From assembly GCA_035712365.1 (NCBI GenBank), contig DASTAW010000046.1, positions 1 to 64,000 on the forward strand: a stretch of 64,000 nt of DNA. Direction: 5' to 3'. Origin of the DNA: Terriglobia bacterium (GTDB taxonomy: Bacteria > Acidobacteriota > Terriglobia > UBA7540). Position 1 is the stretch's first letter, and every line of letters begins with the position of its first letter. Of the stretch, positions 10,919-61,269 are shown piece after piece. The position numbers and the translations under genes were made by a program. The notes beneath the pieces are model-generated. The model did not search any database, was not told the origin of the DNA, and saw only the letters and a list, made by a program, of their open reading frames with translations.

Positions 10919-13587
10919 TGAAGAGTCCGTTGCTGATCGTGGCGGTTTGCTTTGCGCTCGGCATCCTGGCCGCGCGCGCGCTGGCCCCCGGCTTTGATGA
11001 CATCTGGCTGCCGCTTGCCGCCGCTTCCGCCTGCCTTCTGATTGGCCTTGTATCTCTTCGCCAGGACTGGATTCCACTCTCCGTCTGCATGGCGCTCGCG
11101 GGTTTTGTGCTGGCGGGCATGGCGGCCGGCGCCGCGTTTCAATACCGGTTTTTGCCCAACGACATTCACAACCTCGCCGGCTGGGGCGCGGACCTCAACA
11201 AGGAAGTGGAAACGGAGGGCGTGATTGCCAGCAACCCGATTCGCGGCGATAACAGTTACAGGTTTGAGCTGGAATGCCGGAGGGTCGAAATCAGCGGCGA
11301 GTGGCGGCGGGTGCGGGGAAAAATCCAGGCCCGGTTGTTCACACCCGCCGATGCGCAAAGCTGGGCGACGGTCGAAGCGATGGATCTGCGATACGGCGAC
11401 CTGGTCCGGGCGCCCGTCCGGTTTGAAAAGCCCTACGTTTACCGCAACCCCGGGAGCTTTGATTTCCGCTGGTGGCTGGAAGCGGTCGAAGACATTTCAT
11501 GGGAAGGCAACATCAGGAATCCGCGCGCCGTGCAGAAACTTTCCGCAGCACAGGCGTCTCGTTTTGCCATGCTGGTCGCGAATGTCCGGCGGCGCCTGCT
11601 GCGAGGGATTGACCGCCTGTACCCATCGTGGTCGCCTGAGGGGCGCGTGGGCGCGGTGCTGAAAGCTGTACTTCTGGGTGACCGATCATCGCTCGATTCC
11701 GATACCGTGGAGAATTTCAGGCAGTCGGGGTTATATCACTTGCTGGTGATTGCCGGACTCCATGTGGGCCTGCTGGCGTCTATCATTCTCTTCTTTCTTT
11801 ACCGTTTTCGAGTGGGAGAATCCTGGAGGGCGGCATGCCTCCTCATTTTTCTGGGAGGTTATTCACTGCTGGTCGAACAGCGTGCTCCCACGCTGCGTGC
11901 AACCTTGATGATCGCGGCTTACGTGCTGGCCCGCTATGTTTATCGTGACCGGTCGGCATTGAACGCGGTCGGACTTGCGGCGTTGGTCTTGCTGTTTCAC
12001 CGGCCCGCATGGCTTTTTGAGGCAGGATTCGAGCTTTCTTTCTCCGCTGCACTGCTGATTGCCGGGCTGGCGCTTCCCATCCTTCAGCGCACGACGGTCC
12101 CTTACCGAAACGCACTGTTTGGGCTGAAAGAATTGGACCGTGACATCAATTTAGCGCCGCGCCATGCTCGGTTTCGGGTGGAGCTTCGCATGATGATCGG
12201 CTGGCTCAAAGCGCAATCGTCATGGCTCGAGAGGCATCCGGCGCTTTGCGAGAACGCTGTCACCATGCCGCTCCGGATTGCTCTGTGGGCGGCAGACCTG
12301 GTGTTGTTTTCGGCGGTCCTTCAGGTGGGGCTCATGATGCCCATGGCGGAGACTTTCCATCGAATCACCATTGTTGGAATCGGCCTGAACACGATTGCAT
12401 TTCCGCTGATGACTGTGCTGCTGGCGCTGGCGTTGCCCACGGTGGCGCTTGCCGCGACACTGCCGGCGCTGGCCGTGCTGCCAGGGAAGCTGCTTTTCTG
12501 GATCACGAGCGGCCTGCTGGCCCTCACCGAATTTCGCGGCGCACCCCTGTGGATGTCTTACCGGATTCCGGGACCGCCTTTCTGGGTTGTCCTGGGCTTT
12601 GCGCTTGCGGCAATCGCCTCCGCACTGACATTGGGCCGACGCCGGCGTCCTTTCTTCGTCTCCGTCTGCCTGTTCATAACCTTTGCCGGGCTGGTGGTTT
12701 CGTATCCGTTTGCTTCGAACCTGCCGAAAGATCAGCTTGAGGTGACGGCCCTTGATTGCGGACGAGGTGAAGCGCTTTTCAGCGTGCTTCCTGACGGGAC
12801 CACGCTCCTGGTAGATGCCGGAGGCCGGGAGCAGTTTGGTTCGGAGGCCGGGCGCTGGAACCCGGGCGAAGAGATTGTTTCTCCCTACCTTTGGTCGCGC
12901 GGCATTAAGAAAATCGACATCGCAGTCCTTGGCGAAGGGAGCGATGAAAACATCCAGGCCATGACGGCAATCCTCCACAATTTCAAGGTCCGTGAACTGT
13001 GGCGCAGCCCTCGCAATTCTGGTCCGGACACTCGCTCTCTGGTTGACGCCGCGCGTGAACGGGGCGTTCAGATTCGGGACCTGGCGCCGGATACCGGCGA
13101 GGACCCCGGCACAACAGCAATTCAGGTCCTATGGCCCCGCGCTGTTTCGGGCAGCTCGCTGTTGCCCTTCCGCGACAGGGCGCCCGTGCTGCGCGTTGCG
13201 GGGCCGGCCGGAAGCTTTCTCTTGCAGGGCGCGACGGACGGACGGGTGGGACGGATTCTGGCAGAATCGGTGAACGACCTTTCCAGCGACGTACTGGAAT
13301 CTTCACGGCCGCTGTCAGAAATCTTCTCTCAAAAGAAATTTGTGGAGCTGGTGAAACCTGCGGTTGTGTTGCAAGCCGGTGGTCGTAATCAGGACCGGCT
13401 GGCGAGAGGGGTCTTGCACATTGGCGCTCACGGCTCGGTTGACGTGCCTGTGCTCACAACGGCCAGGGAGGGGGCCATTACAATTGACATGAAGAAGTCA
13501 ACTCTCACCGTCCGATGCTACGGCACTGCCAGGGAATTCCACTGGCCGCGTCCGAAGGGCCGTGCGGCGGACTTTTCCGGCCTATAA
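10918..13587 (+). CDS. comEC: ComEC/Rec2-family membrane protein, competence channel-like
   Basis: The 889-residue integral membrane protein matches ComEC, the inner-membrane channel for DNA uptake in natural transformation. It has an N-terminal pair of membrane helices, an OB-type soluble region, and the Competence domain with many helices (YHLLVIAGLHVGLLASIILFF is the conserved core). A C-terminal metallo-beta-lactamase-like domain begins near LEVTALDCGRGEALF. In that domain the metal-binding HxHxDH motif is absent: the aligned stretch reads LGEGSDENIQ, so nuclease activity is unlikely. The start ATG overlaps the stop of the preceding methyltransferase gene. Confidence 0.88.
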   Translation: MKSPLLIVAVCFALGILAARALAPGFDDIWLPLAAASACLLIGLVSLRQDWIPLSVCMALAGFVLAGMAAGAAFQYRFLPNDIHNLAGWGADLNKEVETEGVIASNPIRGDNSYRFELECRRVEISGEWRRVRGKIQARLFTPADAQSWATVEAMDLRYGDLVRAPVRFEKPYVYRNPGSFDFRWWLEAVEDISWEGNIRNPRAVQKLSAAQASRFAMLVANVRRRLLRGIDRLYPSWSPEGRVGAVLKAVLLGDRSSLDSDTVENFRQSGLYHLLVIAGLHVGLLASIILFFLYRFRVGESWRAACLLIFLGGYSLLVEQRAPTLRATLMIAAYVLARYVYRDRSALNAVGLAALVLLFHRPAWLFEAGFELSFSAALLIAGLALPILQRTTVPYRNALFGLKELDRDINLAPRHARFRVELRMMIGWLKAQSSWLERHPALCENAVTMPLRIALWAADLVLFSAVLQVGLMMPMAETFHRITIVGIGLNTIAFPLMTVLLALALPTVALAATLPALAVLPGKLLFWITSGLLALTEFRGAPLWMSYRIPGPPFWVVLGFALAAIASALTLGRRRRPFFVSVCLFITFAGLVVSYPFASNLPKDQLEVTALDCGRGEALFSVLPDGTTLLVDAGGREQFGSEAGRWNPGEEIVSPYLWSRGIKKIDIAVLGEGSDENIQAMTAILHNFKVRELWRSPRNSGPDTRSLVDAARERGVQIRDLAPDTGEDPGTTAIQVLWPRAVSGSSLLPFRDRAPVLRVAGPAGSFLLQGATDGRVGRILAESVNDLSSDVLESSRPLSEIFSQKKFVELVKPAVVLQAGGRNQDRLARGVLHIGAHGSVDVPVLTTAREGAITIDMKKSTLTVRCYGTAREFHWPRPKGRAADFSGL

Positions 13588-57132: not shown

Positions 57133-58554
57133 TTGAAGAGCGTACTGATCTCCACCTACGAGCTTGGCCGTCAGCCTTTTGGGCTGGCGTCGCCTGCCGC
57201 CTGGCTGCGGCGCGCCGGCTCGGAGGTCGCTTGTCTCGATCTCTCGTGCCAGTCGCTCGATGAAGCGGCGGTCAGGTCAGCCGATTTTGTCGCGATCCAT
57301 GTGCCGATGCACACGGCGACGCGATTGGCTGCGCAGGTCCTCCCTAAGCTGCGACAGCTTAACCCGCGCGCCCAAATCTGCTGCTTCGGCCTCTATGCGC
57401 CTGTCAATGAAGCATTGCTGCGGAAGCTCGGAGCGCAGACCATTCTGGGCGGTGAATTTGAAGAAGGCCTGGTGGCAATTTTCGAGAGTTTGCGAAGCGG
57501 GAAAATTCTGCAAACGAACGAACAGCCACCCATCATCTCTCTGGCACGGCAGAATTTTCTGGCGCCGGACCGGCAATCCCTTCCACCGCTCAGCCGCTAC
57601 GCGAAACTTGTGGGAGCCGACGGCAAAGCCCGGGTCGCGGGCTATACGGAAGCCAGCCGGGGCTGCAAACATCGCTGCCGCCACTGTCCAATCGTCCCGG
57701 TTTACAACGGCATCTTTCGCATCGTCCAGCCGGAGGTGGTGCTTGAAGATATTCGCCGGCAGGTGGCGATGGGAGCCGAGCACATCACCTTTGGCGATCC
57801 CGATTTCTTCAACGGCATCCGCCACGCCATGCGGATCGTCACGGCATTGCACGAGGAGCACCCCGCGATCACTTACGACGTCACCATCAAAGTGGAGCAT
57901 CTGCTGAAGCACTCCGAGTGCCTGCCCGAGTTGCGGGAAACGGGATGCGCCTTTGTGACCACCGCCGTGGAATCTTTCGATGACGAAGTTCTCGTCAGGC
58001 TTGAGAAGGGGCATACGTACCAGGATTTTGTCTGCGTGCTCGAGTTGTGCCGGCAGGCGGGCCTGGCGATCTCGCCCACGTTTGTCGCCTTCACGCCCTG
58101 GACCACGATCGAGACCTACTGCGGCTTTATTACCGGCCTGCACCAGCTCGGCCTGGCCGATCACGTCGCGCCCGTCCAGCTTGGCATTCGCCTGCTGATT
58201 CCTGCGGGCTCGCGGCTGCTGGAGCTTCCGGAAATTGCCCAGACGGTCGGACGGTTCGACGAAAAGATGCTGGTCTATCCGTGGTCCAATGCTGATCCGC
58301 GGGTGGATGAGTTGTGCGCAGAAGTGCAGAGCGTTGTTCACGAAGGCGGAAAGCAGAAGGCAGCCCGGCGGCAGATTTTTGAACGCGTTGCGGAAATGGC
58401 CTACGCAGCCGCAGGGGTCGCGCCGCCGGCCGTGACGGATGAGAATCGGCTGGACCGTGCCGCGATTCCGTATCTCACCGAGCCCTGGTATTGCTGAGCC
58501 GAGCCGACCGGAGACCAGTTGGCCTCCCTGCATCACGGCGAAGGCGTTATCTGA
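57133..58554 (+). CDS. B12-binding-type radical SAM selenoprotein with CUAEP tail (in-frame TGA read as selenocysteine)
   Basis: Residues 1-130 form a cobalamin-binding-like domain (SVLISTYELGRQPFGLASPAAWL, ADFVAIHVPMHTATRLA). The radical SAM core follows, with the 4Fe-4S motif GCKHRCRHCP (Cys178, Cys182, Cys185), then GAEHITFGDPDFFNG and the TIM-barrel elements. The frame reaches Cys454 and TGA 58495-58497, then continues Ala-Glu-Pro and 15 codons to a second TGA at 58552. Cys-Sec-Ala-Glu-Pro is the tail that names the CUAEP/CCAEP radical SAM (seleno)protein family, and a SECIS-like hairpin follows the TGA. The full product would be 473 residues. The substrate is unknown. The start is TTG 57133, without a strong ribosome site. 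Confidence 0.88.
58495..58527 (+). promoter_or_regulatory. Selenocysteine TGA codon and putative bacterial SECIS hairpin
   Basis: After the TGA (58495-58497), GGAGACC-AGTT-GGCCTCC (58510-58527) folds into a stem of six pairs with one A-C mismatch. The apical loop AGUU contains the GU dinucleotide that SelB recognises in E. coli fdhF. The hairpin starts 12 nt after the TGA, close to the 11-nt spacing of fdhF. It lies in coding sequence, as bacterial SECIS elements do. Confidence 0.75.
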
Positions 58555-58635: not shown

Positions 58636-59352
58636 TTGGCGTACGCACAATTTGCAGAAAGTCTCGTACAAAAGTTGAAGCTGAGCCGCACACCTGTTGG
58701 AATTGCGTTTCTTGATCAGGCTCCCCGCGGAGTCAAGCACTATGACCAGGCCGTTCCTTCGGCATGCACTTTCTGGAGGGCGGCCGAGCGCGAACTGTTC
58801 TACGCCACGGCGGCGGACCATTATAACTGCCCCATCGGCGCCATCACGCAGGGATTCCAGGTCCCGCAGCCGGTTTCAGAAAAGGCCATGGAACTGATCG
58901 GAATGATGGGAAAGATTTCCTATCTCGAAGCTGCCGAAGCCGGCAACGTTCCGGCAGTGGAAAAGAAGCACAACGTGGTCGTCTACGGCCCGCTGAGAGA
59001 TTTTGCCGAAATCCAGCCTGACGTCGCGCTTCTGATAGCCACGCCTTTTCAGGCGATGCTGATTTCAGAAGCCAGCGGCGTCGCATCGTGGGGCATGGGA
59101 CATGAAAGCCGGATGCTCGGAAGGCCCGCCTGCGCGGTGATTCCCGCGTCAATGAAAAGCAACGACGCGACCATTAGTATGGCGTGCATGGGCGCCCGGA
59201 CGTTTGCAGACATCAGGAATGAAGAAGTGCTGATTTCAGTTCCGGCCCGCGCACTTGTCGATCTCCAGAGCCGGCTGCCCGTAGTCCTGGACGCCAACGT
59301 CGGGATGGAGAAATTCTACGACGGGCACAAGCGAAACTTTGCGTCAGTTTAG
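58636..59352 (+). CDS. DUF169 domain protein
   Basis: The 238-residue protein matches the DUF169 family: LSRTPVGIAFLDQAPRGV near the start, ACTFWRAAERELFYATAADHYNCPIGAITQGF with two conserved Cys residues, and a C-terminal ACMGARTFADIRNEEVLISVPA. The family has no known reaction; its Cys and Asn-Cys-Pro motifs suggest metal or cofactor binding. It starts with TTG 58636 (GAGAGG upstream), 81 bp after the radical SAM gene, and is followed by the ATP-grasp gene after four bases, so the three are probably one operon. Confidence 0.9.
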   Translation: MAYAQFAESLVQKLKLSRTPVGIAFLDQAPRGVKHYDQAVPSACTFWRAAERELFYATAADHYNCPIGAITQGFQVPQPVSEKAMELIGMMGKISYLEAAEAGNVPAVEKKHNVVVYGPLRDFAEIQPDVALLIATPFQAMLISEASGVASWGMGHESRMLGRPACAVIPASMKSNDATISMACMGARTFADIRNEEVLISVPARALVDLQSRLPVVLDANVGMEKFYDGHKRNFASV

Positions 59353-59356
59353 CGCC

Positions 59357-60682
59357 ATGAATCAACGCGCTTCCAGGCCCGTCCGATCTGCGCCAGGCGG
59401 CGAAAAGCGGCGATTGCTGCTGCTGACGACGACCACGGGCTACCAGACCCGCGCGTTCGTCCAGGCGGCCGAAAAGCTGGGCCTCGCCGTCGCCTTCGGA
59501 AGCGACCGCTGCCACGTGCTGGCCGATCCGTGGCAGGACGGCGCGCTGGCATTGAAGTTTGAAAATCCCGGCGAGTCCGCCGCGAAGATTGTCGAATATG
59601 CAGGCCGCCACCGATTGGATGGCATTGTGGCCCTGGGCGATGCGACGCCTCCCACCGCCGCTCGAGCTGCGGAGACGCTGGGGCTGCCGTTCCACGGCCC
59701 CGAAAGCTCCGACATTTGCCGCGACAAATACCGTTCGCGCCAGCGCCTGGCGGAAGGCGGGCTCAGCGTGCCGCGTTTTACCCGCTTCGCCATCGGCGCT
59801 GACCCGGAAGAAATCGTGAGGCCTGGAGTCGCGCCCATTGGCTTCCCCTGCGTCCTCAAGCCGCTGGCTCTCTCCGCAAGCCGCGGAGTGATTCGCGCCA
59901 ACAACGCGCGGGAATTCATCGGCGCATTCAAACAGATTCAAACACTGCTGCACTCGCCGGACGTCCAGGTGAAGCGCGAAGAAACCAGCAACTATGTGCA
60001 GGTGGAGGAATACATCGAGGGAGAAGAAATCGCCGTCGAGGGCGTTGTCGATCGCGGCCGGCTGAAGGTGCTGGCCATGTTTGACAAGCCGGACCCGCTG
60101 GTTGGCCCCTATTTTGAAGAGAGCATCTACGTGACGCCCTCACGGCTTTCGCTCGAAACGCAGGCAGAGATCACGGAAATGTTGCGGCGCGCGGTCGAGG
60201 CGCTGGGCCTCTCTCACGGCCCCTTGCACGCCGAACTGCGCATCAACCGTCGCGGGCCGTGGATTCTGGAAGTGGCTGCGCGCTCCATCGGCGGGTTGTG
60301 CTCGCGCGCGCTGCGTTTCCACGCGCTCGGAGCCGACGAGAATATTTCGCTGGAAGAACTGATTATCCGGTTGTCACTCGGAGAAGATGTCGAGGCCATT
60401 CGGCGCGAGGAGGCTGCGTCAGGAGTGATGATGGTTCCCGTACCCAGGACAGGTATTTTTCAGCAAGTCGAAGGCATCGAAGACGCGCGCAAGACACCAG
60501 GCGTGGAAGACATCATCATTACGGCCCAGCCGAACCAGAAGCTCCTACCCCTTCCAGAGGGAACGAGCTATCCCGGATTTATCTTTGCGCGCGGTCCATC
60601 ACCCGAGTTCGTTGAGCGGGCGCTGCGCGACGCCCATCAGAAAATGCGTTTTGTAATGAGTTCCGCGCTCCCGGTAATGTGA
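59357..60682 (+). CDS. ATP-grasp domain enzyme
   Basis: The 441-residue protein has a pre-ATP-grasp Rossmann domain (RLLLLTTTTGYQTRAFVQAAEKLGL, LDGIVALGDATPPTAARAAETLGLP). The ATP-grasp fold follows (CVLKPLALSASRGVIRANNAREF, VQVEEYIEGEEIAVEGVVDRG, GPLHAELRINRRGPWILEVAARSIGG), with the metal-binding Glu and Asn/Arg positions. A C-terminal lid and RimK/biotin-carboxylase-like domain end it. Such enzymes ligate a carboxylate to an amine or thiol via acyl phosphate. Its partners here are a radical SAM selenoprotein and a DUF169 protein; the substrate is unknown. ATG 59357 is preferred to TTG 59339. Confidence 0.92.
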   Translation: MNQRASRPVRSAPGGEKRRLLLLTTTTGYQTRAFVQAAEKLGLAVAFGSDRCHVLADPWQDGALALKFENPGESAAKIVEYAGRHRLDGIVALGDATPPTAARAAETLGLPFHGPESSDICRDKYRSRQRLAEGGLSVPRFTRFAIGADPEEIVRPGVAPIGFPCVLKPLALSASRGVIRANNAREFIGAFKQIQTLLHSPDVQVKREETSNYVQVEEYIEGEEIAVEGVVDRGRLKVLAMFDKPDPLVGPYFEESIYVTPSRLSLETQAEITEMLRRAVEALGLSHGPLHAELRINRRGPWILEVAARSIGGLCSRALRFHALGADENISLEELIIRLSLGEDVEAIRREEAASGVMMVPVPRTGIFQQVEGIEDARKTPGVEDIIITAQPNQKLLPLPEGTSYPGFIFARGPSPEFVERALRDAHQKMRFVMSSALPVM

Positions 60683-60745: not shown

Positions 60746-61027
60746 TTACGCCTTTGTTCGTGGTGGGACGTACCCCGGGGGCAGCGCGGCGCCTTCGCCA
60801 AAGAAAAACTGCTCCATCTGCTGGGCGATAATCTCCTGCGATTCCGGGTTGGCGGGAGCCAGCCGGTATTCGTTGATCAGCATCTTCAGGTGTTCCAGCC
60901 AGAGCTTCCAGGCTTCCTGAGACACGCTGTCATAAATGCGCTGGCCCAGTTCTCCCGGCCAGGGCGGCTCATCAAGGCCCGGCAACTCCTTTTGGAATTT
61001 CACGCATTGGACCATGTGTTCCGCCAT
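60746..61027 (-). CDS. yggX: Fe(2+)-trafficking/oxidative damage protection protein YggX
   Basis: The 93-residue protein matches Ygg[75 protein letters not shown]. In Enterobacteria it protects Fe-S clusters from oxidation and may pass iron to them. Cys in VQCVKF is the conserved one. The start ATG 61027 follows homology; upstream Met at 61105 is not supported. It lies next to two enzymes that need Fe-S clusters or radical chemistry, which may be chance. Confidence 0.95.
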
Positions 61028-61269
61028 TAAAAGCCTCCGTCTGAAAACGCGTCTAAAGTGATTTTCCTGGCCGCTTCGCCCAGGAGAGAAGAGAACATCA
61101 ACCATTCATTATACAGGAAATGCCACACGATCAAAGGGATGGCGATTGCTAAAACACAAAAACTCCTCTCGCAAAGGCGCAGAGGCGCAAGGGTAAAACC
61201 GCTGAGTTTCCAAAGTCGAGAAGGCCCGAACCGTAAGCGCGCACGCAGTGACGCGGATACGGCCTCGTC

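Follow-up and report, generated by a model that had tools for sequence, protein, structure and literature searches.

The radical SAM gene that starts with a TTG codon at position 57133 on the (+) strand of the 64,000-nucleotide stretch of DNA analysed here (the window) is annotated as ending at a TGA codon. The question raised by this locus is whether that codon is a stop or is read as selenocysteine (Sec) and, in the latter case, what a Cys-Sec pair near the C-terminus could do in a radical SAM enzyme. The features of the gene are as follows.

57133..58554, + strand: CUAEP-tail radical SAM selenoprotein gene, predicted product of 473 aa with Sec455 (NF040546, PF04055, AlphaFold2)
57664..57687, + strand: CKHRCRHC radical SAM [4Fe-4S] motif, codons 178-185, with Cys178, Cys182 and Cys185 (invariant in 88 sequences)
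57946..57948, + strand: codon of Cys272, outside the radical SAM motif (invariant in 88 sequences)
58492..58497, + strand: Cys454 (TGC) and Sec455 (TGA) (sequence; Cys/Sec alternation)
58498..58551, + strand: post-Sec tail A-E-P-T-G-D-Q-L-A-S-L-H-H-G-E-G-V-I (AEP and Q462 kept in Sec and Cys relatives)
58510..58527, + strand: bacterial SECIS hairpin GGAG-A-CC-AGUU-GG-C-CUCC, apical loop AGUU at 58517-58520 (covariation, covariance model)
58552..58554, + strand: true stop TGA (sequence)

The open frame beyond the annotated stop and its family

Cys454 is encoded by TGC (58492-58494) and is followed in frame by TGA (58495-58497), beyond which the frame continues with GCC GAG CCG (Ala-Glu-Pro, 58498-58506) and 15 more sense codons up to a second TGA (58552-58554). 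Reading of the first TGA as Sec would add 19 residues to the 454-residue protein, for a total of 473. An earlier note on this DNA had claimed exactly this frame and had regarded the annotated stop as not real; the sequence agrees with it in every codon. The note had also placed the product in a radical SAM family named for a Cys-Sec-Ala-Glu-Pro tail. Residues 4-464 matched the NCBIfam model NF040546, "CUAEP/CCAEP-tail radical SAM (seleno)protein", with 650.3 bits (curated cut-off 500 bits), and both features of that family are present, CX3CX2C (as CKHRCRHC) and the C-terminal C-TGA-A-E-P. Radical_SAM PF04055 was matched with 58 bits. NCBIfam already has an entry naming this family and its Sec, so the gene in the window adds a member to it and does not define a new family.

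Members of the family occur in several phyla; within the window's phylum, 61 of 396 genomes have a match above the cut-off. It is missing from the list of 119 prokaryotic selenoprotein families in a 2026 review (PMC13188914), and no paper describing it was found in the open literature; an earlier description in selenoprotein-family papers is possible. Truncation by a standard gene caller, as predicted in the earlier note, is seen on a Thermomicrobium roseum plasmid (L135:4932-6368), where the RefSeq protein WP_012643191.1, named as a CUAEP/CCAEP product, stops at the TGA, and AEP and a SECIS-like hairpin come after it.

The AlphaFold2 model, for which 88 family sequences were used, had a mean pLDDT of 93.8 with the residues after 466 disordered, and the solved structures closest to it are AprD4, MgmA, TsrM and OxsB. 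The predicted fold of the N-terminal domain is B12-like; its match to the B12-binding family PF02310 (29.5 bits) lies under the Pfam gathering score of 32.1.

Decoding of codon 455

The codons at the motif were compared across the fetched loci; the locus sample, for which the top 80 out of at least 557 confirmed matches were retained, is skewed toward the window's relatives. Cys-TGA was found 80 times, Cys-Cys (TGC or TGT) 25 times and TGA-Cys twice, so that the alternation of TGA with a cysteine codon, which the earlier note had proposed to look for, is present in the family. Neither Cys-TAA nor Cys-TAG occurs at the motif among these loci, even though TGA makes up only 31 of 116 ordinary stops of the conserved neighbour genes. 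In a sample of Chloroflexota, 16 motifs read Cys-TGA, 13 read Cys-Cys and one, from the L122 genome that is already among the loci above, reads TGA-Cys. On the tree, Sec and Cys replaced each other at least 11 times. The sequence after the codon is conserved whether Sec or Cys is encoded: none of the 88 sequences deviates at Cys454, position 455, Glu or Pro, Ala is kept in 87 and Gln462 in 86, where the earlier note had considered that homologues might end at this codon with nothing conserved beyond it. Among the Chloroflexota Cys-Cys forms, L150, L152, L153, L156 and L157 continue beyond CCAEP in a long tail that holds additional cysteine pairs (e.g. ...SCCG...SGCCSVGH).

The TGA-Cys loci are two Chloroflexota genomes (L122:11350-11410 and L126 near 11370-11415) with the pair reversed, reading WY-TGA-Cys-Ala-Glu-Pro. 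The hairpin in both sits 3 nt further from the TGA, and SelB is over cut-off in both genomes. The reversed order suggests that either position is able to carry selenium.

The hairpin with a GU-containing loop that the earlier note had described was found exactly at its place, beginning 12 nt past the TGA with the apical loop AGUU 19 nt past it, in general bSECIS geometry. Folding of the window region alone, which the note had proposed together with a comparison to known SECIS elements, did not single it out: the stability was within the range of shuffled sequences (z -0.3 to -1.5), the stem is broken by one A-C mismatch, and the energy of -7.6 kcal/mol is borderline, narrowly inside the published bSECIS limit of -7.5 kcal/mol (PMC13188914). 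Because it is no more stable than shuffles, the hairpin is unconvincing from the window alone, and single-sequence folding was rejected as proof of it. An Rfam scan of the region returned no SECIS family and three sub-threshold chance matches.

The comparison part of that proposal was borne out across the family. After the TGA, 5.73 of 6 positions are paired in 77 Sec genes, whereas the figure for 24 Cys genes is 3.46; the mean hairpin energy is -10.2 kcal/mol in Sec genes and -3.5 in Cys genes (p 3e-11), and a loop with G[U/G] is present in 77/77 and 12/24 respectively. The covariation score, computed on 44 thinned sequences, was 0.435 against 0.215 in shuffled alignments (0/500 as high), with slid controls at or below 0.207. 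A covariance model built leaving the window out, in which conserved coding sequence supplies part of the score, matched 58495-58533 with 43.1 bits (E 2.9e-13 in the window, 2.1e-11 in the genome), and this site is its sole match in the 4.67 Mb genome. At the level of sequence it is the cross-genome comparison, not the window fold, that settles the hairpin as a bSECIS. Three Cys genes (L106:4333-4371, L078:7158-7196, L080:11351-11389) retain a SECIS-like hairpin, and SelB over cut-off is absent from the L106 genome; these are apparently recent replacements of Sec by Cys with a fossil hairpin.

The selenium machinery that the earlier note had named for a search is present in the window's genome: selA (580 bits), selB (354), selD (378) and a tRNA-Sec with UCA anticodon. 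The selD of this genome has an in-frame TGA of its own (G000 contig C33:124245-125168) and is probably itself a selenoprotein. SelB was found in 25 of 29 TGA genomes versus 15 of 21 Cys genomes (p 0.29); as a discriminator between the two it pointed in the right direction without being significant and was set aside. It is weak in this respect because Cys genomes can retain Sec for other proteins. Four TGA genomes have no SelB over cut-off; two of them carry fragments resembling a split selB, and the others are L066 (a 1.3 Mb partial genome) and L134 (Planctomycetota).

That the TGA is a plain stop and the conserved sequence downstream coincidental is hardly credible. The poor showing of the window hairpin by itself speaks for such a stop; against it, the in-frame stops at this codon are all TGA, what follows them is conserved, the hairpin shows covariation, and relatives have Cys in this place. 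These comparisons make it nearly certain that UGA codon 455 would be decoded as selenocysteine by means of the downstream SECIS with SelB and Sec-tRNA, from which we infer selenium in the protein; for this decoding and the identity as a CUAEP radical SAM selenoprotein together, we put the probability at about 0.9. The Sec call is solid, yet ordinary gene callers miss it.

Gene neighbours and a possible role for the Cys-Sec pair

Downstream of the radical SAM gene lie the following genes.

58636..59352, + strand: DUF169 protein (PF02596), the next gene, with a homologue at the corresponding position in L026 and 7 further loci
59339..60682, + strand: ATP-grasp ligase-like protein with an L-amino-acid-ligase C-terminal domain (PF13535, PF18603); an alternative start is possible at ATG 59357
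60746..61105, - strand: YggX-type Fe(2+)-trafficking protein (PF04362)

Among 81 loci of this sample, skewed as it is toward the window's relatives, an ATP-grasp gene lies beside the radical SAM gene in 49 (about 60%), and YggX is nearby in 34, aconitase in 19, an NfuA-type protein in 11 and DUF169 in 8. In the loci without ATP-grasp, no one neighbour family dominates.

ArsL forms a 3-amino-3-carboxypropyl radical from SAM, which is bonded to As(III) (PMC8552651). The substrate, the reaction and the part of the ATP-grasp partner that we infer for the window protein follow this example. The SECIS hairpin directly 3' of the UGA would recruit SelB and Sec-tRNA and place Sec at codon 455. The resulting radical SAM enzyme would have a B12-like fold in its N-terminal domain and carry the Cys454-Sec455 pair near its C-terminus. 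The pair, perhaps with the invariant Cys272 as a possible third soft ligand, would grip a soft, thiophilic (metalloid-like) atom, and a carbon fragment taken from SAM, which in ArsL is 3-amino-3-carboxypropyl, would be moved onto the held atom. The adjoining ATP-grasp ligase would then couple the unusual amino acid so formed to a second one. Compared with Cys, Sec may offer tighter binding together with quicker release and re-reduction of the held atom.

Only six cysteine positions are invariant in the 88 sequences: the three of the radical SAM motif, Cys272, Cys454 and Cys/Sec455. Three such positions beyond the motif, together with the reversible order of the pair (L122, L126), fit a dithiol or selenothiol that grips a soft atom, with Cys and Sec as joint ligands. 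An ArsL-like transfer of a SAM-derived carbon fragment to a soft atom on the Cys-Sec pair is the likeliest of the chemistries considered, offered by analogy as a tentative proposal. Somewhat more doubtful is the wider idea that the CUAEP family, related to ArsL but dependent on selenium, builds a carbon-to-soft-element bond on Cys-Sec or Sec-Cys, and that many soil bacteria use it with the ATP-grasp enzyme to make an amino acid or dipeptide of organometalloid or organochalcogen type.

The same pair could act as a redox device, through a selenenylsulfide that cycles between oxidised and reduced states at each turnover or serves in protection and resetting of the enzyme, with no binding of substrate. 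Mammalian thioredoxin reductase offers a parallel in its Cys-Sec tail. Adjacent Cys and Sec on a flexible C-terminus, their reversible order and a tail beyond Sec that is of low confidence in the model and probably mobile would suit such a device, but AEP and Q462 are near-invariant in Sec and Cys forms, beyond the needs of a plain redox tail, and no recurring thioredoxin-type partner lies next to the gene. We consider this role rather unlikely.

The neighbours bear on another alternative, in which the pair and Cys272 support a sacrificial Fe-S cluster or a persulfide/selenide relay for sulfur or selenium insertion of the MiaB or lipoyl synthase kind. The recurrent NfuA, YggX and aconitase genes point to Fe-S biology over metalloids: the NfuA-type Fe-S carrier adjoins the gene and, like YggX, recurs across different phyla and arrangements. 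There are exactly three invariant cysteines beyond the motif, and MiaB is among the fold matches (TM 0.55-0.61). On the other hand, the nearest solved fold, AprD4, is a dehydratase, the aconitase linkage comes mostly from a single group of acidobacteria, whose shared ancestry may account for the gene order, and adjacent cysteines seldom ligate one cluster. We consider such a function rather unlikely as well.

A service in corrinoid-based metal or metalloid methylation, HgcAB-like, is improbable as the role of the family. It is suggested by a same-strand row of CUAEP, DUF169, CpaM (NF043040, a corrinoid-protein-associated methyltransferase) and a mercury-methylation-type HgcAB-like fusion (NF043039) in L088:11169-13900 and L097:10363-13039, an arrangement that suggests a link of this operon to such methylation. 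However, the row occurs in these two loci only, and the window's genome has no HgcAB-like fusion over cut-off. For this operon, the reversed Sec-Cys form and the ArsL/ATP-grasp parallel no description was found, which does not by itself prove novelty.

Comparison with known systems

Against NF040546, the window protein shows a full-length match with CX3CX2C and Cys-Sec-Ala-Glu-Pro and differs in nothing essential; the reversed Sec-Cys of L122 and L126 departs from the family name. AprD4 (PDB 6fd2, a radical SAM 1,2-diol dehydratase) is the nearest solved fold (TM 0.65) and shares the B12-like N-terminal domain and the radical SAM barrel, but is 17% identical, with another tail and no Sec. SaoC, SaoL, HgcA and other selenoproteins with a Cys-Sec motif likewise have the adjacent pair (PMC13188914); judging by their names, they are not radical SAM proteins. 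For SaoB, SaoC and UXX-star, the review proposes metal binding or an unknown substrate (PMC13188914).

ArsL (NF040542) is the second-best family, homologous over residues 4-408 with 288.8 bits (curated cut-off 450 bits). Paired C-terminal cysteines and an ATP-grasp gene in the cluster are shared with it: all three ArsL-type clusters opened, on plasmids of Priestia, Alicyclobacillus and Pantoea (L136, L137, L138), carry an ATP-grasp gene, and two of them also encode ArsM and an MFS transporter. These RCCLKC-tail clusters may make arsinothricin-containing peptides. The differences are in the tail, which is RCCLKC without Sec in ArsL (KRCCLKC at the end of the plasmid genes) and WYCUAEPT... in the window protein, in Cys272, which is not kept in ArsL, and in the neighbours, as the three ArsL-type clusters carry ArsM or ArsR/ArsI/ArsN genes. 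A tblastn search with the ArsM of L137 matched L137 and L138 only, and no ArsM homologue was found in the CUAEP loci. The ArsL reading of the window protein thus fails several tests, namely the score under cut-off, the missing RCCLKC and the missing ArsM, and plain arsinothricin synthesis was rejected on these grounds. The ATP-grasp proteins of the two groups, 24-28% identical (E 1e-14 to 1e-22), and the absence of Cys272 from ArsL also argue against a close equivalence. The kinship with ArsL, the common ATP-grasp neighbour and the reversible Cys/Sec order nevertheless provide a concrete idea of what a terminal Cys-Sec pair may do in a radical SAM enzyme.
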